From Hydrogenothermaceae bacterium (lineage in GTDB: Bacteria; Aquificota; Aquificia; Aquificales; Hydrogenothermaceae), in assembly GCA_026418455.1 (NCBI GenBank), contig JAOABH010000004.1, positions 372,001-436,000 of the forward strand: a DNA stretch of 64,000 nt. Direction: 5' to 3'. Below, piece by piece: positions 10,446 to 48,219 of the stretch. Within the stretch, counting starts at the first letter, position 1; every line of letters begins with the position of its first letter. Under the pieces are notes generated by a model. That model worked only from the letters and a program-made list of their open reading frames with translations, searched no databases and was not told the DNA's origin. Both the position numbers and the translations under genes were made by a program.

Positions 10446-10448
10446 ATT

Positions 10449-10856
10449 ATGGCTTATACTATACCATACAAAATTTACGAAAAATTAGAGGAAAAACTCG
10501 GGAAAGAAACTGCTTCTGTTGTAACAGAAGCTTTAGAAGAGAGTATAAAAGAAGCCATAAATGAAGCAAAAACTAATCAGAAGATAGAGATAAGTGAAGA
10601 ACTAAAAAAAGAACTTGCTACAAAGTATGATATAGAGCTATTGAGGGAATTAACCAAACATGATATAGAACTTCTCAAGAAAGATATTCAGAATCTTGAC
10701 CAAAAGATAGATAAAGAGATATCCCTTTTGTATAAAGAATTAGAGATAGTAAGAAGAGATATTAAAATCTTAGGAATAATCCTCATAGCTACCATAGCCC
10801 TTATAAATCAAAACTCTCTTGAATATATTTTGAAACTTTTAGGACTGTTTAAATGA
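10449..10856 (+). CDS. Small coiled-coil protein with C-terminal membrane helix
   Basis: This 135-residue protein has a charged, heptad-like helical part (about residues 10-105) and one hydrophobic segment (about 106-125, ILGIILIATIALI) that should anchor it in the inner membrane. It resembles the DUF1640/CCDC90-like coiled-coil class, which is often present in several copies in Aquificota, but the match is by general character only. No catalytic motif is seen. It lies between purL (3-base gap) and an RNase Z-like gene (ATGA overlap), so it is co-transcribed with both. Function unknown. Confidence 0.6.
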   Translation: MAYTIPYKIYEKLEEKLGKETASVVTEALEESIKEAINEAKTNQKIEISEELKKELATKYDIELLRELTKHDIELLKKDIQNLDQKIDKEISLLYKELEIVRRDIKILGIILIATIALINQNSLEYILKLLGLFK

Positions 10857-32614: not shown

Positions 32615-33189
32615 TCTTATACTCAATACTTGCATACCTTATTGGGTCTATTCCTTTTGGGCTTATTGTAGGCAAGATTTTTGGTAAAGATGTAAGGAAA
32701 GAAGGTAGTGGGAATATAGGGGCCACAAATGTTACAAGGGTTATAGGAAAAAAGGCAGGTTTATTAGTTCTATTCCTTGATGCTGTTAAAGGTTTTTTAC
32801 CGGTTTACTATCTAATATCAAAAGGTTATCCTTCTAAGATAGTTTCGGTAGTTTCTATATTTGCAGTGGTGGGACACACATTTTCTATATTTCTTAAATT
32901 TAAAGGTGGTAAAGGTGTAGCAACAGCTTTGGGAGTTTTACTCGCTTTAAATACGAAGGTGTCTATTATAATTTTGATGCTGTGGATTGGTATATTCTTA
33001 ACTACTGGTTATGTCTCATTAGCATCTATCATTTCTGCAAGTATATCTTGGGTTGTTTTACATATTCTATCGGGGGATATATACTACACCTATGCAGCTT
33101 TTTTTATAGCATTGATTATAATTTTTAAACATAAATCAAATATAGAAAGACTTTTAGAAGGTAAAGAACACAGATTTATCCATAAATAG
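32605..33189 (+). CDS. plsY: Acyl-phosphate glycerol-3-phosphate acyltransferase
   Basis: The 194-residue polytopic enzyme has the three PlsY loops: GSIPFGLIVGK, then GSGNIGATNVTR, then FKGGKGVATALG. It acylates glycerol-3-phosphate from acyl-phosphate at the inner membrane, the first step of phospholipid synthesis. It overlaps pgsA by 10 bases and ends the cluster. A hairpin with a T run follows. Confidence 0.95.
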   Translation: MEIILYSILAYLIGSIPFGLIVGKIFGKDVRKEGSGNIGATNVTRVIGKKAGLLVLFLDAVKGFLPVYYLISKGYPSKIVSVVSIFAVVGHTFSIFLKFKGGKGVATALGVLLALNTKVSIIILMLWIGIFLTTGYVSLASIISASISWVVLHILSGDIYYTYAAFFIALIIIFKHKSNIERLLEGKEHRFIHK

Positions 33190-33202
33190 TTATCAAAACT
33201 CT

Positions 33203-33240
33203 GCATATAAAATATACTTTTAACATATGCCGAATTTTTT
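33203..33240 (+). terminator. Hairpin between plsY and the convergent tolC gene
   Basis: GCATA TAAAA (33203-33212) can pair with TTTTA (33218-33222) and TATGC (33226-33230) around a 5-base loop with a 3-base bulge. TTTTTT follows at 33235-33240. On the other strand the hairpin is followed by TTTT, so it may end transcription from both sides. The stem is AT-rich and its strength is uncertain. Confidence 0.5.
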
Positions 33241-34477
33241 ATTTACCTAAGAGATTCATTAAATCAAAAACCTTAATGTTATAGTTATAAAGGACATTAA
33301 GGTAGTTTAAGTTTGCATTTTGGTAGTTAGTCTGAGATTCTAAAACTTCCAGTAAGTTTGTTATATTGGCTTTAAATCTCTCAGTAGATAATCTCATAGA
33401 CTCTTTTGATACTTCTATATTTGATTTCTCTGCCTGTAATTGGGTTTGTAAAGCTTTTAGATCTATCAATGTTTTTGTTATCTGTGTTTTGACTTCCTTT
33501 ATCTTATCCTGTAGTTGTATTTCATATTTTGATTTATCTACTTTAGCTTGTAAAACTCTACTATCCTTAGCAAAACCGTCAAAAAGCTGCCAGTTTAAAG
33601 ACAAACCCAAGTTATATCCTTTTTTCCATATTTCGTTTCCTACTGGAAAGTTTCTCTGATTATTTGCCTGATAGTTTAAAAATGCGGATAGAGATGGATA
33701 GTTTGCGGCTTTTTGATAATCTATCTGATAATCTGCAAGTTTCAGCTGAGCTTTTAAAACTTTAATCTCTGTGTTATCTTCTATCTTCGAGGTATCTACA
33801 TCTGGTATCAGCTGTGTTAACTGTCCTTCCGGAGGTGTTATATCTTCTAACATCAAAAATCTTTTTAAATCTTCTACTGACTTTTCATAATTTGCTTTTG
33901 AAGATTCATAATCAGCTATGGCAGATTGAAGTTGAGAAGATGCTCTCATAAAATCATACTTAGCAAGAAGTCCCTCCTTATACTTTGCCTCTATATATTT
34001 ATAGTTTTCCTGCCAGTATTTTAAGTTTTCTTCTTTTATTTTAACTATCTCTTTATTTAGAAGTGATAATAAAAACAGCCTTCTTGCCGTGTCTTTTACT
34101 TTCTGTTTGACATCTTCCTTTATAACCTGTTGTGTCTCCACACTTACCTTTGACAGTTTTATAAGTGAAAATATCTGATAATCAAATATCTTTTGGGTTA
34201 AACCTGCTTTTACAGAGTACTGATTCTTTGGTGTAAATCCAGATATGTAGTTTGGGTCCCATCTTGTATAGGTACCTGTTAAAAGTAATGAAGGTAGTAT
34301 ATTACCTTTGGCTTCTTTAAGTTGATACTCTGTTTTTTCTATATCCTTCTCTGTAAGTTTTATATTTGTAGCATTTTTTTCTGCTATTGACATAACCTCT
34401 TCATATGTAATTGCATGAGCAGAGCCAAAACATAATGATGTTACTAAGGAGATAAAAGCTAATTTTTTCATCTTCAT
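33239..34477 (-). CDS. tolC: TolC-family outer membrane efflux protein
   Basis: The 412-residue protein has a signal peptide (MKMKKLAFISLVTSLCFGSAHA) and two related helical repeats with the spacing of TolC/OMF proteins (LLALYDF-type and LLEVLESQTNYQNANL segments). OMF trimers form a channel across the outer membrane and periplasm. It is the second gene of a leftward pair with the adaptor (4-base ATGA overlap), divergent from the RND pump. The three together should form one tripartite exporter. Confidence 0.9.
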   Translation of the reverse strand: MKMKKLAFISLVTSLCFGSAHAITYEEVMSIAEKNATNIKLTEKDIEKTEYQLKEAKGNILPSLLLTGTYTRWDPNYISGFTPKNQYSVKAGLTQKIFDYQIFSLIKLSKVSVETQQVIKEDVKQKVKDTARRLFLLSLLNKEIVKIKEENLKYWQENYKYIEAKYKEGLLAKYDFMRASSQLQSAIADYESSKANYEKSVEDLKRFLMLEDITPPEGQLTQLIPDVDTSKIEDNTEIKVLKAQLKLADYQIDYQKAANYPSLSAFLNYQANNQRNFPVGNEIWKKGYNLGLSLNWQLFDGFAKDSRVLQAKVDKSKYEIQLQDKIKEVKTQITKTLIDLKALQTQLQAEKSNIEVSKESMRLSTERFKANITNLLEVLESQTNYQNANLNYLNVLYNYNIKVFDLMNLLGK

Positions 34478-35568
34478 TTAACCTCTGATATTACTTTAAC
34501 AGTCATTCCATCTTTTATATTCATTAGATTTGAGACTATAACTTTATCTTCAGGTTTTAGGTCTGCTGTTATATATACAAATCCCGGTTCTTGAGATAAA
34601 ACTTTTACTAAAACTTTTTTGACTTTAGAATCCGGAGAAACAGTATATATATAGCTGTCATTTCCCATAAGCTGGACTACCTGCTCCGGCAGTTTGTAAC
34701 CTTTTTTCTTTTCTACCACAATTTTAGCTTTCCCATACATATTTTCTCTTAATTTTCCATCTTTATTTTCTATCAAAGCCTTAACTACAAGTAGGTTATT
34801 TTCATTAAGAGAGGAAGATATATAATCTATTTTTCCTTTAACAGTACCAATTCCATCTATATCAATATCTATAATATCACCTAACTTTATAGCCTTAACA
34901 TAATTTTGTGGAAGCTGAAAAACAGCCCAGAGAGGATTTAGTTTTAGGATATAAAAAGCTTGTGTCTGAGTATCTACATAATCTCCTATATTTATCATCC
35001 TTTTATCTAAAAATCCGTCAAAAGGTGCTTTTATAACTGTCTCTCTTTTTTGTCTGGTATACTCTTTAAGTGTAGCTTTTGCAGAGTTTAACTGATTTAA
35101 AGCAACTTCCATATCTGTCCTTGCGTTGTCAAGTTCTTCTTTTGATATTAACTCCTTTTCATACAACTGCTTTCTTCTTTCGTAGATAGCTTTTTTATTG
35201 AGATATGTACTTTCAAGTTGATTAATCAGTGCCATCTGGGACTCTATCTGGTAATCTTCCTTATCAGGTTCTATCATTGCAAGAGGTTGCCCTGCTTTTA
35301 CAAAGGACCCCTCTTCAACAAATAGTTTTATAACTCTTCCGGATACCTGAGGTTTCAAAGTGGCAGATATCTTTGCTTGTAATGTAGTGTTAGCAACATA
35401 GTAGATATTCACCTCTTCTTCTGTTGGAGTTATAACTTTAACAGCAGGTGTTGGTTTTTGTTGTTGGGTGTTTTGTGGTTGAGTTTTACTACTCTCTATC
35501 TTTTTTACAATTAAAAGACCTGTTATTCCTATAACTATTAAGGTGACAGCAGTTAAAACTTTCTTCAT
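34474..35568 (-). CDS. RND efflux periplasmic adaptor (membrane fusion protein)
   Basis: This 364-residue protein has an N-terminal membrane anchor (about 4-22), a Gln/Pro-rich linker, a lipoyl half-motif (VSGRVIKLFVEEGSFVKAGQ), a coiled-coil hairpin (about 105-160) and the second lipoyl half (VIKAPFDGFLDKRMINIGD). This is the AcrA/MexA architecture. It connects the RND pump to the outer-membrane channel. GAGAGGA lies before the ATG. The promoter region is shared with the pump gene. Confidence 0.93.
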   Translation of the reverse strand: MKKVLTAVTLIVIGITGLLIVKKIESSKTQPQNTQQQKPTPAVKVITPTEEEVNIYYVANTTLQAKISATLKPQVSGRVIKLFVEEGSFVKAGQPLAMIEPDKEDYQIESQMALINQLESTYLNKKAIYERRKQLYEKELISKEELDNARTDMEVALNQLNSAKATLKEYTRQKRETVIKAPFDGFLDKRMINIGDYVDTQTQAFYILKLNPLWAVFQLPQNYVKAIKLGDIIDIDIDGIGTVKGKIDYISSSLNENNLLVVKALIENKDGKLRENMYGKAKIVVEKKKGYKLPEQVVQLMGNDSYIYTVSPDSKVKKVLVKVLSQEPGFVYITADLKPEDKVIVSNLMNIKDGMTVKVISEVK

Positions 35569-35580
35569 CTGTATCCTCTC

Positions 35581-35610
35581 TTGACTGATTTATCAGTCAG
35601 ATTATATAAT
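35581..35610 (+). promoter_or_regulatory. Promoter of the RND pump operon (rightward)
   Basis: TTGACT at 35581-35586 and a perfect TATAAT at 35605-35610 are 18 bases apart. The predicted start near 35617 gives a leader of about 26 bases before the ATG at 35643, which has AGGAG at 35630-35634. The 18-base palindrome lies between the two hexamers. Confidence 0.75.
35582..35599. promoter_or_regulatory. Palindromic operator, probable TetR-family site
   Basis: TGACTGAT-TT-ATCAGTCA is an inverted repeat with 8-base perfect arms. It overlaps the last five bases of the rightward -35 and fills the spacer. It also covers the expected start of the leftward transcript. TGAC/GTCA-ended palindromes of this size are typical of TetR-family operators, and a TetR gene is encoded in the rightward operon (39840-40400). 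One bound repressor could silence both directions. Confidence 0.7.
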
Positions 35611-35630
35611 AGGCTAACCTAAAAAATCAA
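35601..35630 (-). promoter_or_regulatory. Promoter of the leftward adaptor-tolC operon
   Basis: On the minus strand, TTGATT (35630-35625) and TATAAT (35606-35601) are 18 bases apart. The -10 shares the palindrome ATTATATAAT (35601-35610) with the rightward -10, so the two promoters overlap back to back. Confidence 0.65.
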
Positions 35631-35642
35631 GGAGCATGATAA

Positions 35643-38600
35643 ATGTATAGCTTCTTTATCAGAAGACCTGTAACCACATGGATGTTTATGTTAGCATTCA
35701 TCATAGCTGGTTTATACAGCTTAAAATACATTCCCATAGATAGAAACCCAGATGTTGATTTTCCTATAGTTTCTATCACAACAACATATCAAGGAGCTTC
35801 TCCCTATGTTATAGATACGAATATAACAAGGAAGATAGAAGATGAACTTGCAACAATAAGTGGTATTGAAGCTATTAACTCATCAAGTTATACAGGTACA
35901 TCAAGAATTTCTGTTATATTTGACCTTAATAAAGATATAGATGTTGCTGCACAGGAAGTTAGAGATGCTGTAAACAGAGCCCAGAGACAGTTTCCACCTA
36001 ATACAGACCCTCCTGTTGTCAGAAAGGTTGACACCTCTATGGCTCCTATACTTGCTATTCTTTTACACGGAAATGTAGATTACGGGACATTAAGTTACTT
36101 TGCAGATAAAGTTATAAAAAGAGAGTTTGAGAGAGTTCAGGGAGTAGGAGAGGTTGATCTGGGAGGATTTAGAGACTATGTAATGTGGGTGAGAGTAGAC
36201 CCACTTAAACTGGCTGGTTATAAGCTTACAGTTACAGATATCGTAAATGCACTACAGGAAAACAACGTTGAGATTCCAGCTGGCAGAGTTGACTCAAAGA
36301 ATAGAGAGTATGTAATAAGGGTTTATGGCAAGGGACATTCTGCTGAAGATATAAACAACATAATAATAAAGAACAACATAAGGATAAAGGATGTAGGAAA
36401 AGCAGAGTTTACATTTGATGAGAGAAGAGGAATAGTAAGATTTAAAGCCTTTGACTCAAAAGAGGCAGAACCTGGAATAGCTCTGATAATATATAAACAG
36501 TCAAAGGAAAACACGGTAGAAGTTTCAAAAAGAGTTATCGAAAAGATGAATGAGTTAAACAAACAGCTACCAACAGGTGTAAGGTTAGATATAAACTATG
36601 ATGCTTCTACCTTTATAGAGAGGAGTGTTAATGATGCATTACATGAGATAATTTTAGGTTCATTATTGACAGCCTTAATGGTATTTCTATTCTTAGGAAG
36701 TCTTAGAATGACTTTTATTCCAGCAATGGCTATTCCGGTTTCCATACTTGGAGCGATAACTTTTCTATTTTTCTTTGGACAGACATTAAACACATTTACA
36801 CTCCTTGCATTGGCAGTTGCAGTTGGGCTTGTTATAGATGATGCTATAGTTGTTATGGAGAGTATATACAGAAGAAATGAGGAAGGTTTAAAAGGTTTAG
36901 AAGCTGCAGAGAGAGGAACAAGAACAGTTATATTTGCTTTACTTGCATCAACAGCTTCACTTATAGCAATATTTATTCCTGTTTTATTTATAAAGAGTGT
37001 TATAGGTAAATTTTTCTTCGGTTTTGCTTTTGCCTTGATAGTAGCGATAGCAACATCTTACATTGTATCCTTAAGTTTTACACCTATGATATCGGCAAGA
37101 TTAGTAAAAGTAAGTGAGAAAAATATATTTCAAAAGGCTTATGACAAATTTGAATCTATGTTTGATGTAGCCTTAAAGTGGTCTTTAAATAACAAGTTGA
37201 TAGTTTTAACAATATCTTTTATCACTGTTATAATTGGCTTTAAACTTGCATCTATCACACCAAAAGAATTTACACCTATAGTTGATGAAGGAAGGTTCTT
37301 AGTTAGATTTGAGACTCCTACCGGCTCATCTTTTGGTTTTGTTGATAGAAAAGCAAGAGAACTTGAAAAAATCGTAGAAAAAAATCCTTATGTACTCAGA
37401 TACGGTGTGGCATTCGGTGAAGGTATAGCAGGAAGACCGGAAGTAAATGGAGGGATATTCTTTATCACACTCAAAGATAGAAGTACTGGAAGACCTCACC
37501 AAAAAGAGATAATGGATATGTTTAGGAAAGAGTTTAGAAAAGTTCAAGATGTTAGAGCAATTATAGATATACCATCTGCTGTAGGTCCAAGAGCTGGAAG
37601 GTCTGCAGATGTTATGTACGTAATAAAAGGACCTGATCTCAATGAGCTTGCAAAAATATCATCTACTATAGAGTCCAAGTTAAGACAAACACCGGGATAC
37701 ACAGATATAGATACAGATTTAAGGATAAACAAACCTGAGATAAAGATAACTATAGATAGAGATAAAGCCTCAAATTTAGGTGTATCTGTAGCAGATATAG
37801 CAAATACACTAAACTTTCTATTTGGGAAATATAAAATAGGTACTTATGAAAAAGGTTCAGAAAGTTATAACTTTTACATAAAAGCAGATGAAAACTTTTT
37901 AAGTAGCTTTGACAACTTATCAAAGATATATGTAAGGTCAAAAGATGGGAATTTAGTTCCAATCTCTTCTTTAACCCATTATGAACTTGGTCCTGGCTAT
38001 AATGTCTTAAACAGGTATAACAGACAGTACGCAGTTACTATCTATACAAACGTAACAGGTGGGAAATCTGTTGGTGATGCAGTAACTGAAGTTGAAAAGA
38101 TAATAAAAGAGCATCTACCTGCAGGATACACTTATGAAGTAGGAGGACAGACAAAGGAGTTTAAGAGGACCTTCTCTTACCTTGGACTTGCACTTATCGT
38201 TGCCATAATAGCTGTATATATGATACTTGCTTCACTGTTTGAAAGTTTACTCCATCCTTTTACCGTTCTTTTAACTCTTCCTTTTGCTGTATCAGGAGTG
38301 TTTACTCTGATACTTATAACTGGCACAACACTAAACGTAACATCTTACTTTGGTATAATCTTACTGATAGGATTGGTAACTCGGGATAGTGTCCTTTTTA
38401 TAGAGAGGATAATACAACTTAAAAAAGAAGGTTATCAAACATTAGATGCAATTATGCAGGCAAGAAAGGAAAGATTAAGACCTATACTTATGACTACATT
38501 TACCATCTTTGCATCACTTCTACCTGTATCCTTAGGATTAACAGAAGGCTCTGAGATGAGACAACCACTTGCAATAGCAGTAATCGGTGGTCTTTTAACT

Positions 38601-38684
38601 GCTTTACCTTTAAGTTTATTTGTGATACCTATATTTTATCTACTAATTGACAAAATTAAGCTCTGGAGGTTTAAAAATGTATGA
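35643..38684 (+). CDS. RND efflux pump (HAE1/AcrB-like permease)
   Basis: The 1013-residue protein has twelve membrane helices and two large periplasmic loops (about 30-330 and 545-860). The proton-relay aspartates are Asp399 and Asp400 in VGLVIDDAIVVMES. The start SFFIRRPVTTWMFMLAFIIAG is typical. It exports drugs, solvents or metabolites by proton antiport, with the adaptor and TolC encoded leftward. Substrate cannot be told from the sequence. It ends inside the start of the aldehyde reductase gene. Confidence 0.95.
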   Translation: MYSFFIRRPVTTWMFMLAFIIAGLYSLKYIPIDRNPDVDFPIVSITTTYQGASPYVIDTNITRKIEDELATISGIEAINSSSYTGTSRISVIFDLNKDIDVAAQEVRDAVNRAQRQFPPNTDPPVVRKVDTSMAPILAILLHGNVDYGTLSYFADKVIKREFERVQGVGEVDLGGFRDYVMWVRVDPLKLAGYKLTVTDIVNALQENNVEIPAGRVDSKNREYVIRVYGKGHSAEDINNIIIKNNIRIKDVGKAEFTFDERRGIVRFKAFDSKEAEPGIALIIYKQSKENTVEVSKRVIEKMNELNKQLPTGVRLDINYDASTFIERSVNDALHEIILGSLLTALMVFLFLGSLRMTFIPAMAIPVSILGAITFLFFFGQTLNTFTLLALAVAVGLVIDDAIVVMESIYRRNEEGLKGLEAAERGTRTVIFALLASTASLIAIFIPVLFIKSVIGKFFFGFAFALIVAIATSYIVSLSFTPMISARLVKVSEKNIFQKAYDKFESMFDVALKWSLNNKLIVLTISFITVIIGFKLASITPKEFTPIVDEGRFLVRFETPTGSSFGFVDRKARELEKIVEKNPYVLRYGVAFGEGIAGRPEVNGGIFFITLKDRSTGRPHQKEIMDMFRKEFRKVQDVRAIIDIPSAVGPRAGRSADVMYVIKGPDLNELAKISSTIESKLRQTPGYTDIDTDLRINKPEIKITIDRDKASNLGVSVADIANTLNFLFGKYKIGTYEKGSESYNFYIKADENFLSSFDNLSKIYVRSKDGNLVPISSLTHYELGPGYNVLNRYNRQYAVTIYTNVTGGKSVGDAVTEVEKIIKEHLPAGYTYEVGGQTKEFKRTFSYLGLALIVAIIAVYMILASLFESLLHPFTVLLTLPFAVSGVFTLILITGTTLNVTSYFGIILLIGLVTRDSVLFIERIIQLKKEGYQTLDAIMQARKERLRPILMTTFTIFASLLPVSLGLTEGSEMRQPLAIAVIGGLLTALPLSLFVIPIFYLLIDKIKLWRFKNV

Positions 38685-39843
38685 TTTTGAATTTCATAAT
38701 CCTACAAAGATTATTTTTGGTAAAGGTTCTCACCATAAAATAGGTGAAGTTTTAAAAAAAGATGGAGTAAAAAAGGTTCTGTTTGTTTATGGACAGTCTT
38801 CTATAAAGAAGATTGGACTTTATGATGATGTAGTTAAATCATTGATAGATAACGGTATAGAGTTTATAGAACATGGTGGAGTAAAACCAAATCCTGTATT
38901 GTCCCATACAAAAGAAGGAATAGAGAAAGCCAAGAGATATAAAGTAGATGCAATCCTCTCTGTAGGAGGAGGGTCTGTCCTTGATGAAGGAAAAGCTATA
39001 GCTGTTGGAGCTGTAAGTGATGTTGATGTTTGGGAGTACTTTTTGGGAAAGAGAGAGATAACGAAAGCCTTACCTAACTATACGATTCTGACATTAGCAG
39101 CAACCGGAAGTGAGATGAATGGTTATGCAGTTATCACAAACGAAGAGACACAGGAAAAACTCTCCATAGGCTCAATACACACATTCCCAAAAGTATCTAT
39201 ACTAAATCCGGAGCTTACATTAACAGTCCCAACTTCATACCAAGCTTATGCTTCTGTTGATGCAATAGCTCATGTTATAGAGTGGTACTTTACCTGTTCC
39301 GTCTGTCCTAATATATCAAACTTACTTGTTGAGTCTGTTGTAAAATCTGTTATAGATACTACAAAGAGAATATTAAAAAATCCTCAGGATTACGATGCAA
39401 GAGCAGAGTTTATGTGGACAGCAACATTGGCACTAAACGGTATAACAAGACCGGGATACAAAGATGGTGTATATATAAACCATATGATAGCCCATTCTTT
39501 GGGAGCACTTTACGATTTACCTCACGGAGCATGTTTATCTATCGTAATACCAGCATGGATGTGGTGGTACAAAGATAAAAATCCTTCTCAATTTGAAAGA
39601 TTCGCAAGACAGATTTTTGGACTCTCTTCAAAGGAAGAAGGCATAAAAGCCCTCAAAAAATTCTTTAAGGAAATTGGTGCCCCAGTATCCCTACAAGATG
39701 GAGGGATTCCTTCCTCTGATATAGATAAAATAGCTAACCATGTGTATAACACTACAGCAAAAATATGGGGACTGGATAAGATATATACACCGGAAAAGTT
39801 AAAAGAGATTCTTTACTTAGCTTTAAGGAGTAATATAGAGTGA
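38677..39843 (+). CDS. Iron-containing alcohol dehydrogenase, YqhD/BDH-like
   Basis: The 388-residue type III dehydrogenase starts at the ATG with GGAGGT 6 bases upstream, overlapping the pump gene by 8 bases. The nucleotide loop is GGGSVLDEGKA (97-107). Metal ligands are Asp195, His199, His269 and His283, with YqhD-like spacing. YqhD-type enzymes reduce aldehydes with NADPH. Its place in a TetR-controlled efflux operon suggests reactive aldehydes or alcohols as cause or target of the response. This is inferred from context. Confidence 0.88.
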   Translation: MYDFEFHNPTKIIFGKGSHHKIGEVLKKDGVKKVLFVYGQSSIKKIGLYDDVVKSLIDNGIEFIEHGGVKPNPVLSHTKEGIEKAKRYKVDAILSVGGGSVLDEGKAIAVGAVSDVDVWEYFLGKREITKALPNYTILTLAATGSEMNGYAVITNEETQEKLSIGSIHTFPKVSILNPELTLTVPTSYQAYASVDAIAHVIEWYFTCSVCPNISNLLVESVVKSVIDTTKRILKNPQDYDARAEFMWTATLALNGITRPGYKDGVYINHMIAHSLGALYDLPHGACLSIVIPAWMWWYKDKNPSQFERFARQIFGLSSKEEGIKALKKFFKEIGAPVSLQDGGIPSSDIDKIANHVYNTTAKIWGLDKIYTPEKLKEILYLALRSNIE

Positions 39844-40400
39844 ATTTATCAACAAAAGATAAGTTATTAGAAGCTGCAAAGCAGTTATTCTCAGAGAAAG
39901 GATACCATGAAACAAAAATATCAGATATAGTAAGTAAAGCACAAGTAGCTCAGGGAACTTTCTATATCTATTTTAAAAGTAAAGAAGATATATTCCTTCA
40001 ACTTATTAAAAAGATACACCAAGAGCTTTTAGACAGACTTTCAAAATATAAAGAGATTTCAGGTAACCCTCAAACCATATTAACTATGCTTGTAGAGGAG
40101 TTTTTAGAGGAAGTTTATAAAAACAGAGAGTTAGCTCAGATATTCTTCGGACAGTTATTAGGTATAAATGAAGAGTTTAGACAGCTTTATATAAAAAAGA
40201 TATCTGATATTCAGCAGGTTCTAAAAGATATACTAAGTAGATTTTACGATGAAGAGAGTTCTGCTGTTTTATCTGCTCTTATACTTGGATTTTTGAGACA
40301 ACTATTTTTTAACTGTTTGATAGAAAAAAATTTAACTTTAGACCAGATGAAAAGAAAAGCTTATATAGCCTTAAATATAATAGATAGAGGAGTTTGTTAG
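39840..40400 (+). CDS. TetR-family transcriptional repressor
   Basis: This 186-residue protein has an N-terminal helix-turn-helix (about 7-53: LLEAAKQLFSEKGYHETKISDIV, then GTFYIYFKSKEDIF) and a variable ligand-binding C-terminal domain. It starts with GTG overlapping the dehydrogenase stop (GTGA). It is the third gene of the efflux operon and most likely binds the palindrome at 35582-35599, giving autoregulated repression of both pumps. The ligand is unknown. Confidence 0.9.
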   Translation: MNLSTKDKLLEAAKQLFSEKGYHETKISDIVSKAQVAQGTFYIYFKSKEDIFLQLIKKIHQELLDRLSKYKEISGNPQTILTMLVEEFLEEVYKNRELAQIFFGQLLGINEEFRQLYIKKISDIQQVLKDILSRFYDEESSAVLSALILGFLRQLFFNCLIEKNLTLDQMKRKAYIALNIIDRGVC

Positions 40401-40414
40401 GAGGTAGAAAAGAT

Positions 40415-41668
40415 TTGAGAAAATTTATTTTTGTGTTACTATTTTTTTCGTTTGCAAAAGCTTTAACCCTTGAAGAAGCTATAAATAAAGCTATACAGAA
40501 CAATCCGGAACTACAATCTATAAAACAACAACTAAAATCTGCAGAGTTTGGACTAAAAGCAGATGAAAGTTTATACTTTCCTACATTCTTCACAAAAGCC
40601 TCTTATCAGTATTACGGCAAAACTCCAATGACGATAATACCAAACTTTCCACTATCTTTTAAACAGTCAAACCAAAGTTTTAAAACCTTTAATATAGGAT
40701 TTAATCAAACTCTATACTCCGGAGGACAAATAACTTCAAAAGTAGAAGCCTCAAAACATAACCTTCAAGGAACTTTATACCTATACAAAGAAAAAGAAAA
40801 TCAAATAAAAGCTGATGTTATAAAAGCTTATATAGATTTATTCATAACAGCATCTTTAATAGATATATACAAGAAGGAGCTTCAATCTATAGAGTCTCTC
40901 TACAAGCAGGCAGAAGGTTTCTTCCAGGAAGGACTCATCACAAAGGTTGATCTTCTTCAAACAAAAGTCAGACTTGCGGAAGTCCGTAAAAATCTAACAG
41001 AAGCTCAAGGTAATCATAAAATAGCCATATCAAAACTATCTCAACTCTTAGGAGAAGAGATAAAAGATGAGAAATTTGAGCCGGTAAAAATGGATATTCC
41101 AGAAAAGTTAGATATAAAAAATCTATTAGAGAAAGAGAACAGACCGATAGTATCTTACTACAGAGAAAGTATAAAGCAGTTGGAAAATTTAGAAAAGATA
41201 GAGTCTGCTGGATTTTTACCAAAACTATTTATACAGGGAGAGTATCTATACACGAATCAAAGCCCATACCTTGATCCAAAAGGTAATTTACTATTTACCG
41301 TAGGAGCTTCTATCCAGTTTCAAGGAGTAGCCCCTTACTACAAAACATTACAGGCAAAATCAAACACATCAAAATTAAGATATGATTTACAAGATACAAA
41401 AGAGAAGATAAAACTTGAGATAAAAACGGCATACCAAAACTTTCTAGTTGCAAAAGAAAACTATAAAGTTTCCGTAGAAAATCTACAGTATGCACAAGAA
41501 TACTTTGATCTTGTAAAAGAGCAGTATGCAAACCAACTTGCTACAAACACAGACCTTTTAAACGCAGAAGCTGCCCTAACAAGAGCATTGGAAAGTAAAG
41601 AGATAAATTACTATAACCTTATCAAATCTTATGTAGATATTAAAAAAGCAATTGGTGAGGATCTTTGA
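40415..41668 (+). CDS. Second TolC-family outer membrane efflux protein
   Basis: The preferred start is the TTG at 40415, which has AGGAGG (about 40399-40404) at proper distance and yields a clean signal peptide MRKFIFVLLFFSFAKA; an upstream TTG at 40394 would add seven residues. The 417-residue product has the OMF repeats (LTLEEAINKAIQNNPEL, LFQEGLITKVDLLQTKVRLAE-like, and LATNTDLLNAEAAL). It precedes emrA/emrB-like genes and probably serves that pump. Confidence 0.88.
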   Translation: MRKFIFVLLFFSFAKALTLEEAINKAIQNNPELQSIKQQLKSAEFGLKADESLYFPTFFTKASYQYYGKTPMTIIPNFPLSFKQSNQSFKTFNIGFNQTLYSGGQITSKVEASKHNLQGTLYLYKEKENQIKADVIKAYIDLFITASLIDIYKKELQSIESLYKQAEGFFQEGLITKVDLLQTKVRLAEVRKNLTEAQGNHKIAISKLSQLLGEEIKDEKFEPVKMDIPEKLDIKNLLEKENRPIVSYYRESIKQLENLEKIESAGFLPKLFIQGEYLYTNQSPYLDPKGNLLFTVGASIQFQGVAPYYKTLQAKSNTSKLRYDLQDTKEKIKLEIKTAYQNFLVAKENYKVSVENLQYAQEYFDLVKEQYANQLATNTDLLNAEAALTRALESKEINYYNLIKSYVDIKKAIGEDL

Positions 41669-42801
41669 TGGATAAAAAAAAGCAGATAGGATTAATCACT
41701 GTAGTAGTTTTAACGATAGGATTTTTAATTATCTCTATTAACTGGATACATCACAGAATGAATTACATAATAACAGATGCTGTATTTGTTGAGACAGATT
41801 ATCTATCAAATGTTGGATTTAACAGAGTGTCTGGAAAAGTTGTTCAGCTTTACAAAAAAGAAGGGGATTCTGTAAAAGCAAACGAAGATATAGCCAAGAT
41901 AGATGATACAGATTATAAGATTCAGCTTGAGGCTTTAGAAAAGAAGATAGAGTCATTAAGATATCAAAAAAATCAACTTGAAAACCAGTTAGAAAGAGTA
42001 GAGAAAGAAGTATACATAAATGAAGATATACAAAATCTAACAGTTCAAGAGGTAGATAAAAAGATAGAAAGTTTAAACGCTCAACTAAACCAGATAAAAT
42101 CTCAACTTGAACTTGCAAAAAAGGATGAAGAGAGATACAGAAGATTATTTGAGAAAGGATTGATACCACAGAGAAAGTACGAAGAAATCCAATTAAACCA
42201 AAAAGTCCTTCAAGACCAAAAAACATCCTTAGAAAAAAATATATCAGAACTAAAAGTTTCAAAAGAAAAAGCCTTAAAATCTGTCTTATACGCTAAAACA
42301 CAGAGACAGATAACTTCAGAGATACAAGACCAGATAAAATCCTTAGAAAGTCAGATTTCATCTTTGGAAAAAGATAGGGAAGATTTAATAAACCAGATAA
42401 AATACACAACCTTAAAATCGCCCTATGATGGTGTTATAGCAAAAAAGTTTGTTTCTATAGGAGATATAGTTAAAGCCGGACAACCGATATACGCAGTAGT
42501 AAAATCAGATAGTTTCTATATAAAAGTTTTACTTGAAGAAACAAAACTCCAAGGGTTAAATGTAGGAAATAAAGCATATATAAAACTCGACGCATATCCA
42601 GATAAGAAGTTTGAAGGAGTAGTTGAAAATATAGATATAGCGTCTGCAGCAAAGTTTGCCTTAGTCCCTAGAGATATATCAGCAGGAGAGTTTACTAAAT
42701 TAGCCCAAAGGGTTCCTGTAAAGATAAGGATAACAAAAGGTGATAAATCCATACTAAGAGTTGGATTGGGTGGAGAAGTAGAGATAGAGAAGAGTAAGTA
42801 A
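41668..42801 (+). CDS. emrA: EmrA-like membrane fusion protein
   Basis: The 377-residue adaptor has an N-terminal membrane helix (about 7-25), a short lipoyl part (VSGKVVQLYKKEGDSVKANED), a long coiled-coil hairpin (about 85-235) and a second lipoyl/beta-barrel part (LKSPYDGVIAKKFVSIGD). The long hairpin and single N-terminal helix fit the HlyD/EmrA branch that joins MFS pumps to TolC. The ATG overlaps the tolC stop; a TTG one codon earlier is unlikely. Confidence 0.9.
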   Translation: MDKKKQIGLITVVVLTIGFLIISINWIHHRMNYIITDAVFVETDYLSNVGFNRVSGKVVQLYKKEGDSVKANEDIAKIDDTDYKIQLEALEKKIESLRYQKNQLENQLERVEKEVYINEDIQNLTVQEVDKKIESLNAQLNQIKSQLELAKKDEERYRRLFEKGLIPQRKYEEIQLNQKVLQDQKTSLEKNISELKVSKEKALKSVLYAKTQRQITSEIQDQIKSLESQISSLEKDREDLINQIKYTTLKSPYDGVIAKKFVSIGDIVKAGQPIYAVVKSDSFYIKVLLEETKLQGLNVGNKAYIKLDAYPDKKFEGVVENIDIASAAKFALVPRDISAGEFTKLAQRVPVKIRITKGDKSILRVGLGGEVEIEKSK

Positions 42802-42803
42802 AG

Positions 42804-44363
42804 ATGGAAGACAACAGACCAATCTATGAGAGGATAACAAATTTAGAGAGAGGGTTAATTACATTTATAGTTATGACTGGTGCTTTTATGGCTATCCTTG
42901 ATACAACCATCGTTGATATAGTAGTCCCTAAGATGATGGGACCATTACAGACAGACCTCTATGGAGTTCAATGGGTTATTACAGCCTATATGATAGCTTC
43001 TGCGGTTATGTTAATACTCTCTGAATGGCTCGATAAAGTAATAGGTTTAAGGAATGTTTTCATAGCAGGAATAGTTTTATTTACAGTATCATCTTTCTTC
43101 TGTGGCCAAGCTCAAAATATAGACTGGATGATTTTTTCAAGGGTGGCTCAAGGGATAGGAGAAGCTTTTATAATGGCAACAGCTCAAACGATACTATTTT
43201 CTGTTTATCCAGAAGAAAAAAAAGGTCTTGCAATGGGAATTTTTGGACTTGGTGTAAGCTTTGCTCCAGCCCTTGGACCTACATTAGGGGGTTATATAAC
43301 TGAATATTTAGATTGGAGATGGGTGTTTTTTATAAACATTCCAGTGGGTATATTTACCACTTTACTTGCTTTATTTTATCTTCCTGAAACAAGTATGATA
43401 AGAGAGAAAGCAAAGCTAAACTTTGTGTCCTACTTTTTTCTGTCAGTTTTCACCATCTCCCTTCTTATCCTTTTATCAAAAGGGCAGCAGCTTGGTTGGT
43501 TTATGTCAAATTTTATAGTTTACCTTACAGTTATATCCGTTTTATCTTTACTACTTTATCTTATATCTGAGATATTATCAAAAGAGCCTCTGATTGATTT
43601 CAGGATTTTTTTAATAAAAGAGTATTTTGTTGGTTTTTCAGTTTTTTTCCTACTCTTAGGGTTTTCTATGTATCAGGTTTTCTATCTTTTGCCACTTTAC
43701 TATGAAAATTTAAAAGGTATTCCTACATTTGAAGCTGGACTCCATATATTAGCCTTTGCTATGTTTATAGCTATATTCTCACCAGTAGCCGGTATACTAT
43801 CAGATAAATGGAGTGAAAAGTATGTTTTATACATAGCCACTACTCTATATCTTATTACATCTATATTTATAATACCAAATCTTGATTACTACACACCTTC
43901 ATCAAAAGCAGCTTTAATGACTGTCCCACTTGGAATATCTATGGGAATGTTTTTTGCTCCGGTAACTACCCTTGCACTTAGAAAACTTGGAAATAAAACA
44001 TCTCTTGGAACTGGACTTATGCATTATGGGAGATTTGTAGGTGGCTCTTTTGGAACAGCAATAGCTACAAATGACCTATACAGACACCAATGGGAACATT
44101 TTGAAGGTATAAACTCAATGCAAAACAACAGCTATATACAGCAATTTTTGGAAAAAGTAAAAGAGTATATGGTAGGTGTACCGGAAAATATAATAGAACA
44201 GAAAGCCCAAGCTCTTCTCTATTCAGTTGAATATCTACAAAGTTTAAACTTCTCATTTCACGATACATTCCTTATTGCTGGACTGTTTGGTTTATTAGGT
44301 GCCTTGCCAGTTTTTTATCTTATGATAGAAACTCTCCGTAATACCAAAAAGAAGGAGATATAG
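42804..44363 (+). CDS. emrB: EmrB-like MFS multidrug exporter (DHA2 family)
   Basis: The 519-residue protein has about fourteen membrane helices. DTTIVDIVVPKM in helix 1 and the RVAQGIGEA and LGPTLGGYI motifs are typical of the DHA2/EmrB group. With EmrA and TolC it would export hydrophobic compounds by proton antiport across both membranes. It begins 2 bases after emrA. Its last 69 bases overlap the convergent O-antigen ligase gene. Confidence 0.93.
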   Translation: MEDNRPIYERITNLERGLITFIVMTGAFMAILDTTIVDIVVPKMMGPLQTDLYGVQWVITAYMIASAVMLILSEWLDKVIGLRNVFIAGIVLFTVSSFFCGQAQNIDWMIFSRVAQGIGEAFIMATAQTILFSVYPEEKKGLAMGIFGLGVSFAPALGPTLGGYITEYLDWRWVFFINIPVGIFTTLLALFYLPETSMIREKAKLNFVSYFFLSVFTISLLILLSKGQQLGWFMSNFIVYLTVISVLSLLLYLISEILSKEPLIDFRIFLIKEYFVGFSVFFLLLGFSMYQVFYLLPLYYENLKGIPTFEAGLHILAFAMFIAIFSPVAGILSDKWSEKYVLYIATTLYLITSIFIIPNLDYYTPSSKAALMTVPLGISMGMFFAPVTTLALRKLGNKTSLGTGLMHYGRFVGGSFGTAIATNDLYRHQWEHFEGINSMQNNSYIQQFLEKVKEYMVGVPENIIEQKAQALLYSVEYLQSLNFSFHDTFLIAGLFGLLGALPVFYLMIETLRNTKKKEI

Positions 44364-45479
44364 AGGTAGTAAAGCATCCCAAAATCCAGAGAATAGAGAA
44401 CCTACAAATATACAGCCTAACATAAACAGAGAAGGTGCCACTAAAATATCCTCTAACAGAACAAAATTTATTCTTAAAAGGTAGGTAAAATAACTTAACA
44501 TCATCCATAAAATGCCAACAAGCCCAACAACACCTCTTATTATGAATTCAGATATAAATATAGTTGACTCATAATCACTACCATTGTAAGCTTTCGGCTG
44601 TAATCTATTACCACAACCAACTCCATGACCAAACAGGATATTAAAGTAGTTTCCATCTTTAAAATCCTTTTTTATAACCTCTACTCCTTCTTGGAAAAGT
44701 TGCCATCTACCACTTACAATAGTATTTGCGGTTTCATCTGTAAGTTGTGATTTTCCTGAAAAGATATCATAGAGAGTTCTAAAACGACTGTCTTTATTAA
44801 CAAGATAAAAACCAAAACCTAAAGATAGTATCAAAAAACCGGAAACGATAAAAAGAATAATCTTTTTTGGAAGAAGGTATCTATAAACAAAAATCATAAA
44901 AGCAAGAGTAGCCCCAAATCCTATAAGTGAGTTCCTCCTTGCAGAGAGTAATACAAATCCAACAAAAAACAAAAAAATAACAAAGTATAGATATTTTTTA
45001 AAACTGTCATTCTTAAAGTGGTAGATGGACATACTTAAAGAAGCCAAAGCAAAAAAAGAGAACCACATCCCCATCTCAAAAGGTCCACCCCACAACATTC
45101 CATAATCATTTAAAACGAAATATTTATACAGAGCAATAGGAGAAAGAAACAATCCAATAAAAATCAATAAAAGGTTTAGTCTTCGGAAAAATTCATAATC
45201 AACTTCAAACTTATCTTTCAGAAGGTAGATAAAAGGAAAAATTGCCTGCTCAACAGCTTTTGATACAGATCCATAAAGAGAAGTGGTAAGTAAAGTTGAG
45301 AAAGAGTAAAGTGATAAAGGCTTTAAGATAGTACCATTTAAAGATAACTTTCTCTTAACTAAGTTATACAATGTGATTATCAAAAGAATTCCAACAAAAA
45401 TTTCAAACACCGAAATAGACACAAAAGCTGAAATAACTAAAAAATATAAAATAAAATTTTTAGTTCTCTTTCTATTCAC
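44295..45479 (-). CDS. O-antigen ligase / polymerase-like membrane protein
   Basis: The 394-residue polytopic protein has about ten to twelve helices and a large periplasmic loop ending in FGHGVGCGNRL, followed by a late region (STIFISEFIIRGVVGLVG) typical of the Wzy_C/WaaL family. It would ligate O-antigen to lipid A-core, or polymerise it. As a second such protein is encoded at 59816, this one is the better ligase candidate. It starts with GTG behind TGGAGTG, is read leftward, and overlaps the 3' end of emrB. Confidence 0.8.
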   Translation of the reverse strand: MNRKRTKNFILYFLVISAFVSISVFEIFVGILLIITLYNLVKRKLSLNGTILKPLSLYSFSTLLTTSLYGSVSKAVEQAIFPFIYLLKDKFEVDYEFFRRLNLLLIFIGLFLSPIALYKYFVLNDYGMLWGGPFEMGMWFSFFALASLSMSIYHFKNDSFKKYLYFVIFLFFVGFVLLSARRNSLIGFGATLAFMIFVYRYLLPKKIILFIVSGFLILSLGFGFYLVNKDSRFRTLYDIFSGKSQLTDETANTIVSGRWQLFQEGVEVIKKDFKDGNYFNILFGHGVGCGNRLQPKAYNGSDYESTIFISEFIIRGVVGLVGILWMMLSYFTYLLRINFVLLEDILVAPSLFMLGCIFVGSLFSGFWDALLPLYLLLFGITESFYHKIKNWQGT

Positions 45480-45543: not shown

Positions 45544-48219
45544 ATGAAAATCTGTGTAGTAGGGCTTGGGTATGTTGGACTACCATTGTCTGTTTTGTTT
45601 GCTTCAAAGTATGAGGTTATAGGATTTGATATTAATCCACAGAGAATCAGAGAGCTAAAAGAAGGGTATGATAGAACAAAAGAAGTTGAAAGTGAAAAGT
45701 TAAAATCCGTAAATATATATTACACAGATAATCCTCAAGATATATCAAAAGCAGATATAATCATAGTTACAGTTCCAACTCCAATAGATGAGCATAATAT
45801 TCCAGATTTAAAACCTATAATATCAGCATCTAAAACTGTAGGAAAGTATATGAGAAAAGGTGCGATAGTTGTTTATGAATCTACTGTATATCCCGGACTT
45901 ACAGAGGAAGAGTGTGTACCTATCTTAGAGAAAGAAAGTGGTATGAAATGGAAGAAGGATTTCTTTGTGGGATACTCTCCGGAGAGAGTTAACCCAGGAG
46001 ATAAAGAACATACCATAGATAAAATAAAGAAAGTAGTAGCAGGAGATACACCTCAAACAACGGAGATACTTGCAAAACTCTATGGTAGTGTCATAACAGC
46101 TGGAATCCATATAGCTCCTGATATAAAAACAGCAGAAGCGGCAAAAGTTATAGAAAATACACAGAGAGACCTAAATATAGCACTTATGAATGAACTTTCT
46201 CTTATATTCAACAAAATGGGAATAGATACTAAATCAGTTTTAGAGGCAGCATCTACCAAATGGAACTTCCTAAGATTTGAACCAGGGCTGGTAGGAGGTC
46301 ATTGTCAGATAGGCACAGAATTTATAACAGTAAAAGATTCAAAAGGTGTATATGAAACCACTTTTGAGGATCTTATATACAAAAAATTAAAAGTAAAGAA
46401 AGTTGTTAATTTTTACGGAACAGAGCTTATTTTCCCAGAGGAAAATATAGAAGTTTTAACCTTTGATCCAATATCAGAAAACTTCAGCTTTAAACCAGTA
46501 AGGGTTTTCACAAGAAGAAGATATGATAAACTTATTCAAGTAAAGTTAACTTCTGGACAGACAGTTACTGTATCTGACAAACATCCTTTCATATTTAAAA
46601 ATCAAAACAGTTACGATGTAAAACTTGCGGACCAGCTTCTACCGGAAGATGAAATTCCTCTTTTATCAAAACTTCCAGTTTTGTATAAAGAAGAGAAGAT
46701 AAACCTTATAGACTTTCTTGTTGATGCTGATTTTAAAGATAAATTAAGAATAAAACCTAAAAATAAAAATTGGAAAGACTTTAAAGCACTTAAATCCTAT
46801 ATAACAAAAAGATTTTTAGGTAAAAAGGTATCCAACTTCCTCATCAATAACTACCTTCCTTTCCTCTTCTATCTCAAAATCAGAGATAAGTTTACAAAAC
46901 ATTACAGTGAGGAAGATTTAGAGATAGTGTCAGGTAGAGGTCCATCTTTTGGAAGAATACCTGCCATTTTAAATGTAGATGAAAACTTTGCAAGATTTAT
47001 AGGATACTATCTTTCTGAAGGATGTTTAACAGAAGATAAAAAAACCATTAGAGTAAGAATAACGATAAATCCTGAGGAAAAAGAGCTACTTAAAGATATA
47101 ACAGATATACTAAAAGGTTGGAATATATCCTATTCTCTCTATAAAGATAAAAACTTTAAAAGCTTAACAATAAAAGTATCAAACAGAGTTTTTGGGTATA
47201 TATTGAAAAAGTTAAATGTAGGAAAAGACAGCTATGATGCTAAAATACCAGATATTATCATGTATAACAGGGATGAGATTAGAATAGAAACATTAAAAGG
47301 ACTTTTCAGAGGAGATGCTGGTGTATCTATAAATAAAAAGAATATAAAAGTGAGCTACTTCACATCGTCAGATGTGCTTTATCATCAAATATCACTACTT
47401 CTTCTAAATTTTGGTATATTTTATAATCATCAATCTAGAAGAGGTCTTTTAGAGATTACTTCAAAATCTTCATTAAATAAGGTTAAAGATTTTCTACTTG
47501 ATAGTAAGAAGGATAGACTTGAAAGTGTTCTATCCTTTAAAAAAGAAGGTATTATAAAATCTTACAAAGAAAGTGATGGTTTTTATTTAGCAAAGGTAAA
47601 AGAAATAAAACCTGTTAAGGAGGAAGGCTATATTTATTCCTTAGAAGTTCCTTCAACGAAGAATTATGTAACATCTTCAGGTGTCATAACTCATAACTGT
47701 ATTGGAGTTGATCCTTATTATCTGACCTTTAAAGCCCAAGCTATAGGTTATCACCCAGAAGTTATACTTGCCGGAAGACGGATAAATGACTATATGGGTA
47801 AGTATGTGGCAGAGATGACTGTCAAAAAACTTATAAAAGCATCAAAAGCTGTAAAAGGAAGTAAAGTATTAATTCTTGGATTTACATTTAAAGAAAATAT
47901 ATCAGATATAAGAAACACAAAAGTTATAGATATATACAATGAGCTTAAAGAATATGGAGTAGAGGTTTATGTAAATGACCCATTTGCATATCCTGAAGAA
48001 GTAAAATACGAGTATAACATAGATTTACTTACAGATATTGAATCCCAAAAACCTTATGATGCCATAATTGTAGCAGTAAAACACCGACCATTCATAGAAG
48101 AGCTTGACTTTAAAAAATATAAAGAACTTATGAACTCAAATCCAGTCCTAATAGATGTAAAAGGACTTTACAACAGAGAAAAAGCTGAAAAAGAAGGCTT
48201 TATATACTGGAGATTATGA
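45544..48219 (+). CDS. wbpA: Nucleotide-sugar 6-dehydrogenase (WbpA/TviB-like) interrupted by an intein
   Basis: The 891-codon ORF encodes a 426-residue dehydrogenase split by a 465-residue intein. The N-extein (1-253) has the Rossmann loop GLGYVGLPLS and the catalytic-domain helix NTQRDLNIALMNELS. The C-extein (719-891) begins with the catalytic cysteine in CIGVDPYYL, followed by ILAGRRINDYMG and FTFKENISDIRN. Joined, the active-site reads GGH-CIGVDPYY. The family oxidises UDP-HexNAc to the uronic acid in two NAD-dependent steps. WbpA-type specificity for UDP-GlcNAc is inferred from the wbpB, wbpD, wbpE and wbpI homologues downstream. Activity should require splicing, because Cys719 is also the +1 splicing residue. 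Confidence 0.93.
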   Translation: MKICVVGLGYVGLPLSVLFASKYEVIGFDINPQRIRELKEGYDRTKEVESEKLKSVNIYYTDNPQDISKADIIIVTVPTPIDEHNIPDLKPIISASKTVGKYMRKGAIVVYESTVYPGLTEEECVPILEKESGMKWKKDFFVGYSPERVNPGDKEHTIDKIKKVVAGDTPQTTEILAKLYGSVITAGIHIAPDIKTAEAAKVIENTQRDLNIALMNELSLIFNKMGIDTKSVLEAASTKWNFLRFEPGLVGGHCQIGTEFITVKDSKGVYETTFEDLIYKKLKVKKVVNFYGTELIFPEENIEVLTFDPISENFSFKPVRVFTRRRYDKLIQVKLTSGQTVTVSDKHPFIFKNQNSYDVKLADQLLPEDEIPLLSKLPVLYKEEKINLIDFLVDADFKDKLRIKPKNKNWKDFKALKSYITKRFLGKKVSNFLINNYLPFLFYLKIRDKFTKHYSEEDLEIVSGRGPSFGRIPAILNVDENFARFIGYYLSEGCLTEDKKTIRVRITINPEEKELLKDITDILKGWNISYSLYKDKNFKSLTIKVSNRVFGYILKKLNVGKDSYDAKIPDIIMYNRDEIRIETLKGLFRGDAGVSINKKNIKVSYFTSSDVLYHQISLLLLNFGIFYNHQSRRGLLEITSKSSLNKVKDFLLDSKKDRLESVLSFKKEGIIKSYKESDGFYLAKVKEIKPVKEEGYIYSLEVPSTKNYVTSSGVITHNCIGVDPYYLTFKAQAIGYHPEVILAGRRINDYMGKYVAEMTVKKLIKASKAVKGSKVLILGFTFKENISDIRNTKVIDIYNELKEYGVEVYVNDPFAYPEEVKYEYNIDLLTDIESQKPYDAIIVAVKHRPFIEELDFKKYKELMNSNPVLIDVKGLYNREKAEKEGFIYWRL
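46303..47697 (+). mobile_element. Intein with LAGLIDADG homing endonuclease inside wbpA
   Basis: Intein residues run from Cys254 (codon 46303) to Asn718 (codon ending 47697); the next codon is extein Cys719. Block A is Cys254. Block B is TVTVSDKHPF with His347. Block F is YSLEVPSTKNYV. Block G is GVITHN-C with the His-Asn pair. The insert carries two LAGLIDADG-like helices, FIGYYLSEGCL (acidic Glu492) and LKGLFRGDAGV (Asp591), so the endonuclease may be active. All canonical splice residues are present, so splicing should be efficient. From memory, Methanocaldococcus jannaschii also has an intein in a UDP-glucose dehydrogenase; whether the site is the same was not checked. Confidence 0.95.

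Follow-up and report, generated by a model that had tools for sequence, protein, structure and literature searches.

Divergent promoters under a TetR-type repressor are familiar from Tn10, in which tetA and tetR are controlled through two operators and the regulator gene occupies one arm; at the locus described here, from a heat-loving bacterium, there is one putative operator and the regulator gene lies downstream of the pump gene. Passages of PMC10268837 describe bidirectional promoters, defined by −10 elements that overlap and divergent starts 7–25 bp apart, as widespread in bacteria. The nearest known system is E. coli acrA/acrR, for which portions of PMC12825309 describe divergent starts with a common −10 region and repression of both genes by the TetR-family AcrR. 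The same portions report start sites 10–23 bp apart in the five E. coli promoters studied, low basal activity of the five bidirectional promoters tested, and polymerase competition that appears when activity rises. As far as those portions go, the likeness lies in the efflux genes, the overlapping divergent promoter and the TetR-family repressor, which at our locus are predicted from sequence. By the same source, acrA/acrR has the regulator on one arm and the pump on the other, whereas here an adaptor and a TolC-like channel face the RND permease and TetR sits inside the permease arm. The promoters of this type also scored 10–12/12 on both sides in seven intact loci, in contrast to the low basal activity described for the five E. 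coli cases. Compared with these known cases, the present locus stands apart in the apparent splitting of one pump between two arms, with near-consensus promoters on both sides. In the titles and abstract openings of the open-licence literature matches listed, we found no account of the operator or of TetR control in these bacteria, which may be in print elsewhere.

Within the window (the whole 64-kb stretch of DNA that was analysed), a 74-bp intergenic region separates the adaptor start at 35568 (−) from the RND start at 35643 (+) (Table 1). The sequence-only reading had placed two −10 elements in the palindrome ATTATATAAT, each with a −35 at a distance of 18 bases; the palindrome was confirmed base for base, and the spacing agreed with the sequence. 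Against the consensus, the rightward promoter (TTGACT, 18-base spacer, TATAAT; 35581–35610) scored 11/12 and the leftward one (TTGATT, 18-base spacer, TATAAT; 35630–35601) 10/12. The opposite-strand −10 elements overlap by 2 bp, the arrangement that serves as the bidirectional-promoter criterion in passages of PMC10268837. Starts placed from the −10 boxes are predicted at ~35617 (+) and, assuming a start 7 bases past the −10, at ~35594 on the leftward arm; they would lie 23 bp apart and give leaders of ~26 nt on both arms. As read from the sequence, the RBS of the opposite gene adjoins or slightly overlaps each −35. The 18-bp palindrome TGACTGATTTATCAGTCA was found, as had been claimed, on the rightward spacer and the predicted leftward start, and it reaches slightly further: five bases of the rightward −35 lie inside it before it continues through the spacer. 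Relative to the predicted leftward start, it spans about +13 to −5. A search of the 1.54-Mb genome, proposed in the same reading, returned this one site with ≤2 mismatches.

Table 1 Features of the divergent efflux locus (positions are those of the window)
Feature	Position	Strand	Basis
TolC-like outer-membrane channel (TolC1)	33239..34477	−	PF02321
RND periplasmic adaptor (MFP1)	34474..35568	−	HlyD_D23; TIGR01730 above cut-off
−35 TTGACT, RND-ward promoter, overlapped by operator	35581..35586	+	Promoter scan
Operator, proposed TetR site, 18-bp palindrome	35582..35599	none	Sequence and conservation
−10 TATAAT, adaptor-ward promoter, 2-bp overlap with other −10	35601..35606	−	Promoter scan
Palindrome containing both −10 boxes	35601..35610	none	Sequence
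−10 TATAAT, RND-ward promoter	35605..35610	+	Promoter scan
−35 TTGATT, adaptor-ward promoter	35625..35630	−	Promoter scan
RND pump permease	35643..38684	+	PF00873, E 2.4e-270
Iron-containing alcohol dehydrogenase	38677..39843	+	PF00465, PF25137
TetR-family repressor, proposed ligand-responsive regulator	39840..40400	+	TetR_N, TetR_C_42; model; best PDB match 2eh3
Second TolC-like channel (TolC2)	40394..41668	+	PF02321
EmrA-like adaptor	41665..42801	+	HlyD_3; best NCBIfam match TIGR00998, below cut-off
EmrB-like MFS exporter	42804..44363	+	TIGR00711 above cut-off

Profile matches bore out the gene contents first read from the sequence, namely an RND adaptor and TolC leftward and an RND pump, reductase, TetR, TolC and EmrAB rightward, with one amendment: the gene called a reductase is present and is an iron-containing alcohol dehydrogenase. 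Of the two export systems claimed, the number held, but the left arm does not form a system of its own. Judging from the gene families, it would supply the RND permease with its partner components and seems to be the adaptor and outer-membrane channel of that pump. One pump would then be split between the two arms, with EmrAB as the second system.

Could such a layout arise by accident in an AT-rich intergenic region? The 74-bp region was dinucleotide-shuffled 5000 times: 58 shuffles contained a perfect palindrome (8-bp arms, gap ≤4), 5 contained ATTATATAAT and none contained both. Across the 64 kb, however, there are 13 perfect 8-arm palindromes (12 besides the operator), which makes the sequence by itself suggestive, not conclusive. 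The 46 promoter-like matches in 33100–44600 equal the shuffle mean of 46.2, and such matches are therefore no proof by themselves; both divergent promoters are among the seven of these that scored ≥10. ATTATATAAT has 5 copies in the window versus a shuffle mean of 0.71, and there are 2 overlapping TATAAT promoter pairs versus a mean of 0.43 (maximum of 4 in 200 shuffles). Accidental palindromes and promoter matches, to which the 13 palindromes and the unexceptional promoter count would be congenial, are nevertheless an exceedingly improbable explanation, given the absence of the joint arrangement from all shuffles and the conservation of the site. In an ungapped alignment of seven intact divergent loci, 16/18 operator columns were invariant versus 10/100 flanking columns, which lifts the site above chance.

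These seven loci (G000, which is the window, G001, G031, G015, G025, G021 and G010) all carry the palindrome at the same position with 0–1 mismatch, and both promoters fall within the score range given above. In six, including the window, the −10 elements overlap by 2 bp and the predicted starts are 23 bp apart; the values for G010 are 5 bp and 18 bp. The adaptor-ward −35 is TTGACT in five, TTGACA in one and the weaker TTGATT in the window. In three further genomes of the window's family (G008, G028 and G033, which belong to one genus and probably reflect one event), the adaptor–TolC pair has moved elsewhere. The exact palindrome was present on 3/3 adaptor halves and on 2/2 available RND halves, the RND 5′ end of G033 being missing so that only its adaptor half was scored. 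The used arm scored 11/12 on RND halves and 12/12 on adaptor halves, whereas the idle arm reached at best 7/12 for the RND-ward promoter on adaptor halves (n = 3) and 8/12 for the adaptor-ward promoter on RND halves (n = 2). Decay of the idle arm with an operator on each half is what selection for repressing each arm predicts. A mirror image was found in G012, where a 2-mismatch site lies over the adaptor −35/spacer (TTGACT-17-TATAAT) and, with respect to the RND promoter (TTGACT-18-TATACT), immediately beyond the −10, the −10 boxes overlapping by 4 bp; this layout might have been gained independently or have come about by inversion.

Next, we searched 61 genomes for the palindrome with ≤2 mismatches. 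The site was present in 32, versus 4 for a reversed control pattern. Among the 37 genomes of the window's family (f1), it occurred in 28/28 that encode a close orthologue of this TetR (E < 1e-20) versus 1/9 that do not, some of these nine being incomplete assemblies; Fisher's test gave 2.3e-7, a statistic that ignores shared ancestry. The one exception, G017, has a 2-mismatch site inside an unrelated frame, and the palindrome is missing from genomes whose TetR matches are all weak, G004, G011, G016 and G022 among them. When the 41 distinct sites were classed by hand, 21 fell at the TetR start and 13 belonged to RND/adaptor promoters; of the rest, 2 lay at EmrB-like genes and 5 in unrelated open frames. 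Five 2-mismatch sites (L063–L066 and L070) were rejected as operators and counted as chance, as they overlap unrelated open frames. When the 19-base −35/operator string was run against viral contigs, the single match lay inside a 1006-codon open frame and was likewise taken as chance.

At the TetR start, a script check of 18 loci (L021, L024–L027, L029, L031–L034 and L037–L044) placed the ATG at base 7 of the palindrome in 18/18, the remaining 3 of the 21 being placed by coordinates only; the operator would thus encode the first TetR residues, M[S/G/N]QS. A start codon within its own operator, with a −10-like box immediately upstream in several of these loci, suggests a leaderless, self-blocked TetR mRNA. 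At the RND gene the association is looser. Leaving out genes cut by contig ends (G002, G018 and G026), 10/16 assessed f1 loci have a site with 0–2 mismatches; five (G005, G013, G019, G023 and G029) show 6–8 mismatches and no good operator, and G006 has only a site with 4. The link between operator and RND gene is therefore not universal. All six of these genomes have TetR with a site at its own start, because of which TetR may there control only itself and TolC–EmrAB, by analogy with relatives in which TolC–EmrAB follow.

The protein encoded at 39840–40400 exceeded the curated cut-off of the TetR_N helix-turn-helix profile PF00440 (65.3 bits versus 24). Its model has nine helices in an all-helical two-domain fold, as in the TetR family (mean pLDDT 92.1), and the 50 fold matches listed are transcription regulators, many titled TetR family. 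The closest solved structure by both sequence (E 3.5e-28) and fold is aq_1058 of Aquifex aeolicus (PDB 2eh3, TetR/AcrR type), a structure entry whose listings give no function. FadR of the TetR type, from Bacillus and Sulfolobus, is the best NCBIfam match and among the nearest structural neighbours; the score of 74.5 bits against the FadR equivalog NF053878 is under its curated cut-off of 200, and FadR acts in fatty-acid degradation, whereas the genes at this locus are exporters. Sulfolobus FadR binds semi-palindromic operators as one or two dimers, according to passages of PMC6449355. The sequence-only reading had put a dimer pair on our palindrome; occupation by one dimer is equally possible.

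Because the host genome encodes three TetR_N proteins (this one, a second and L217), the palindrome might belong to a different regulator, with the operon's TetR acting elsewhere or not at all. We judge this quite unlikely on the co-occurrence of site and orthologue: the palindrome tracks the orthologues of this TetR (28/28 versus 1/9), covers their start codon in every locus checked by script, and is absent where TetR matches are only weak. The second protein, moreover, is encoded among hydrogenase-type genes, with a CobW/HypB-type gene on one side and the gene for a NiFe-hydrogenase small subunit on the other.

A second family (f2), which appears Aquificaceae-like because its TetR resembles Aquifex 2eh3, has RND genes preceded by a variant operator, ACYGACYRGTCRGTC, adjoining TATAAT. 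Exact matches to the variant numbered 18 in 11/61 genomes, all of f2, and a control pattern was found in 1 genome. Nine mark RND starts, and in three of these cases the adaptor gene is close by, with the site between the two genes; the other nine mark adaptor starts, one of which is a duplicate beside an N run in G055. That duplicate, with its operator (L206, 4135 and 4290), is probably an assembly artefact. Where the two halves are separated, either by 420–673 bp (G037, G039, G054 and G055) or at different loci (G041, G043, G045 and G049), a site with ≤1 mismatch accompanies each half in 8/8 cases, the mismatch in G041 and G049 being in the RND site. Compact loci have one site in 4/4 (G047, G052, G056 and, with 1 mismatch, G058). 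Among such loci whose surroundings of the adaptor were mapped (L199–L209), TetR lies in the adaptor arm (MFP–TolC–TetR–TolC) in 11/11. G059 and G060, compact divergent loci left out of the site counts for separated and compact loci, have TetR elsewhere and only a degenerate RND/adaptor site with 2–3 mismatches to the variant. In G051, the negative control, 6 kb around the RND gene held neither a site (≤3 mismatches) nor an adaptor, and the best TetR match was weak (E 5.5e-9), yet G045 and G049, of the same genus, carry the site.

In L165 and L172 (G059 and G060), the start codons of the divergent adaptor and RND genes appear to be only ~21–22 bp apart, with the start in L165 placed by eye, and a −10-like TATTATAAT lies between them; both transcripts may be leaderless. 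In L168, L171, L173, L174 and other f2 RND loci, TATAAT ends ~9 bases before the RND ATG, which suggests leaderless mRNA.

The predicted recognition helix reads [VLY]AQGTFY in f1, with TGACTGA operators, LAHGTFY in G059, and LSQGTFY or [LF]SKG[TA]FY in f2 (9/11 of the loci L199–L209). The corresponding helix of 2eh3, LSKGAFYFHF, resembles the f2 group, whose operator is the variant form. This pairing fits co-variation of helix and operator but is confounded with phylogeny.

The separated loci bear on whether the operator serves both arms. Its position over the RND −35/spacer is classic for repression, and in the window the leftward promoter has a weaker −35, so that control could stop at the RND arm, the leftward promoter being constitutive, or replaced by another start, and a mere neighbour. 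Such one-sided control is very unlikely, as adaptor halves that have left the RND gene keep an exact operator of their own beside a 12/12 promoter in f1 (3/3) and a site in f2 (8/8). In both families the operator tends to stay with both halves even after they separate.

Shared control of both operons by the TetR of the rightward one, as the sequence-only reading had proposed, gains support from the co-occurrence of site and orthologue, from operators at the TetR start in relatives, and from retention of the operator on each available half after the locus splits. We consider it highly probable that one TetR operator represses a bidirectional promoter serving the adaptor and TolC to the left and the RND pump, dehydrogenase, TetR, TolC and EmrAB to the right. 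TetR would bind the single palindrome and shut this promoter, covering the −35/spacer of the RND arm and the predicted start site of the adaptor–TolC arm; one bound repressor would block both, because polymerase requires this same DNA whichever way it faces. An inducer would release TetR and both arms would fire. Since the −10 boxes overlap, the arms would exclude each other, polymerase binding in one orientation at a time, and the location of TetR in the RND arm points to negative feedback.

More tentatively, one operator with overlapping −10s might act as a stoichiometry device, an idea we hold to be possible though rather doubtful. The derepressed near-consensus promoters would compete, each polymerase making either adaptor and TolC or pump; selection would keep or duplicate the operator when the halves separate, and the mirror layout of G012 would imply more than one origin of the arrangement. 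The locus offers a natural, strongly symmetric case for how overlapping promoters and one repressor may balance the halves of a three-part export pump. It also provides a concrete candidate operator for a TetR group that is uncharacterised and spans two related bacterial families; the orphan structure 2eh3 likely belongs to this group.

Two further features were seen at or near these loci. Additional DNA lies between the RND and dehydrogenase genes of the otherwise tight operon in L053 (~8478–10270) and L052 (~10300–10756). In the window, a UDP-glucose/GDP-mannose dehydrogenase gene at 45544–48219 is interrupted in frame by an intein that has splicing and LAGLIDADG domains.
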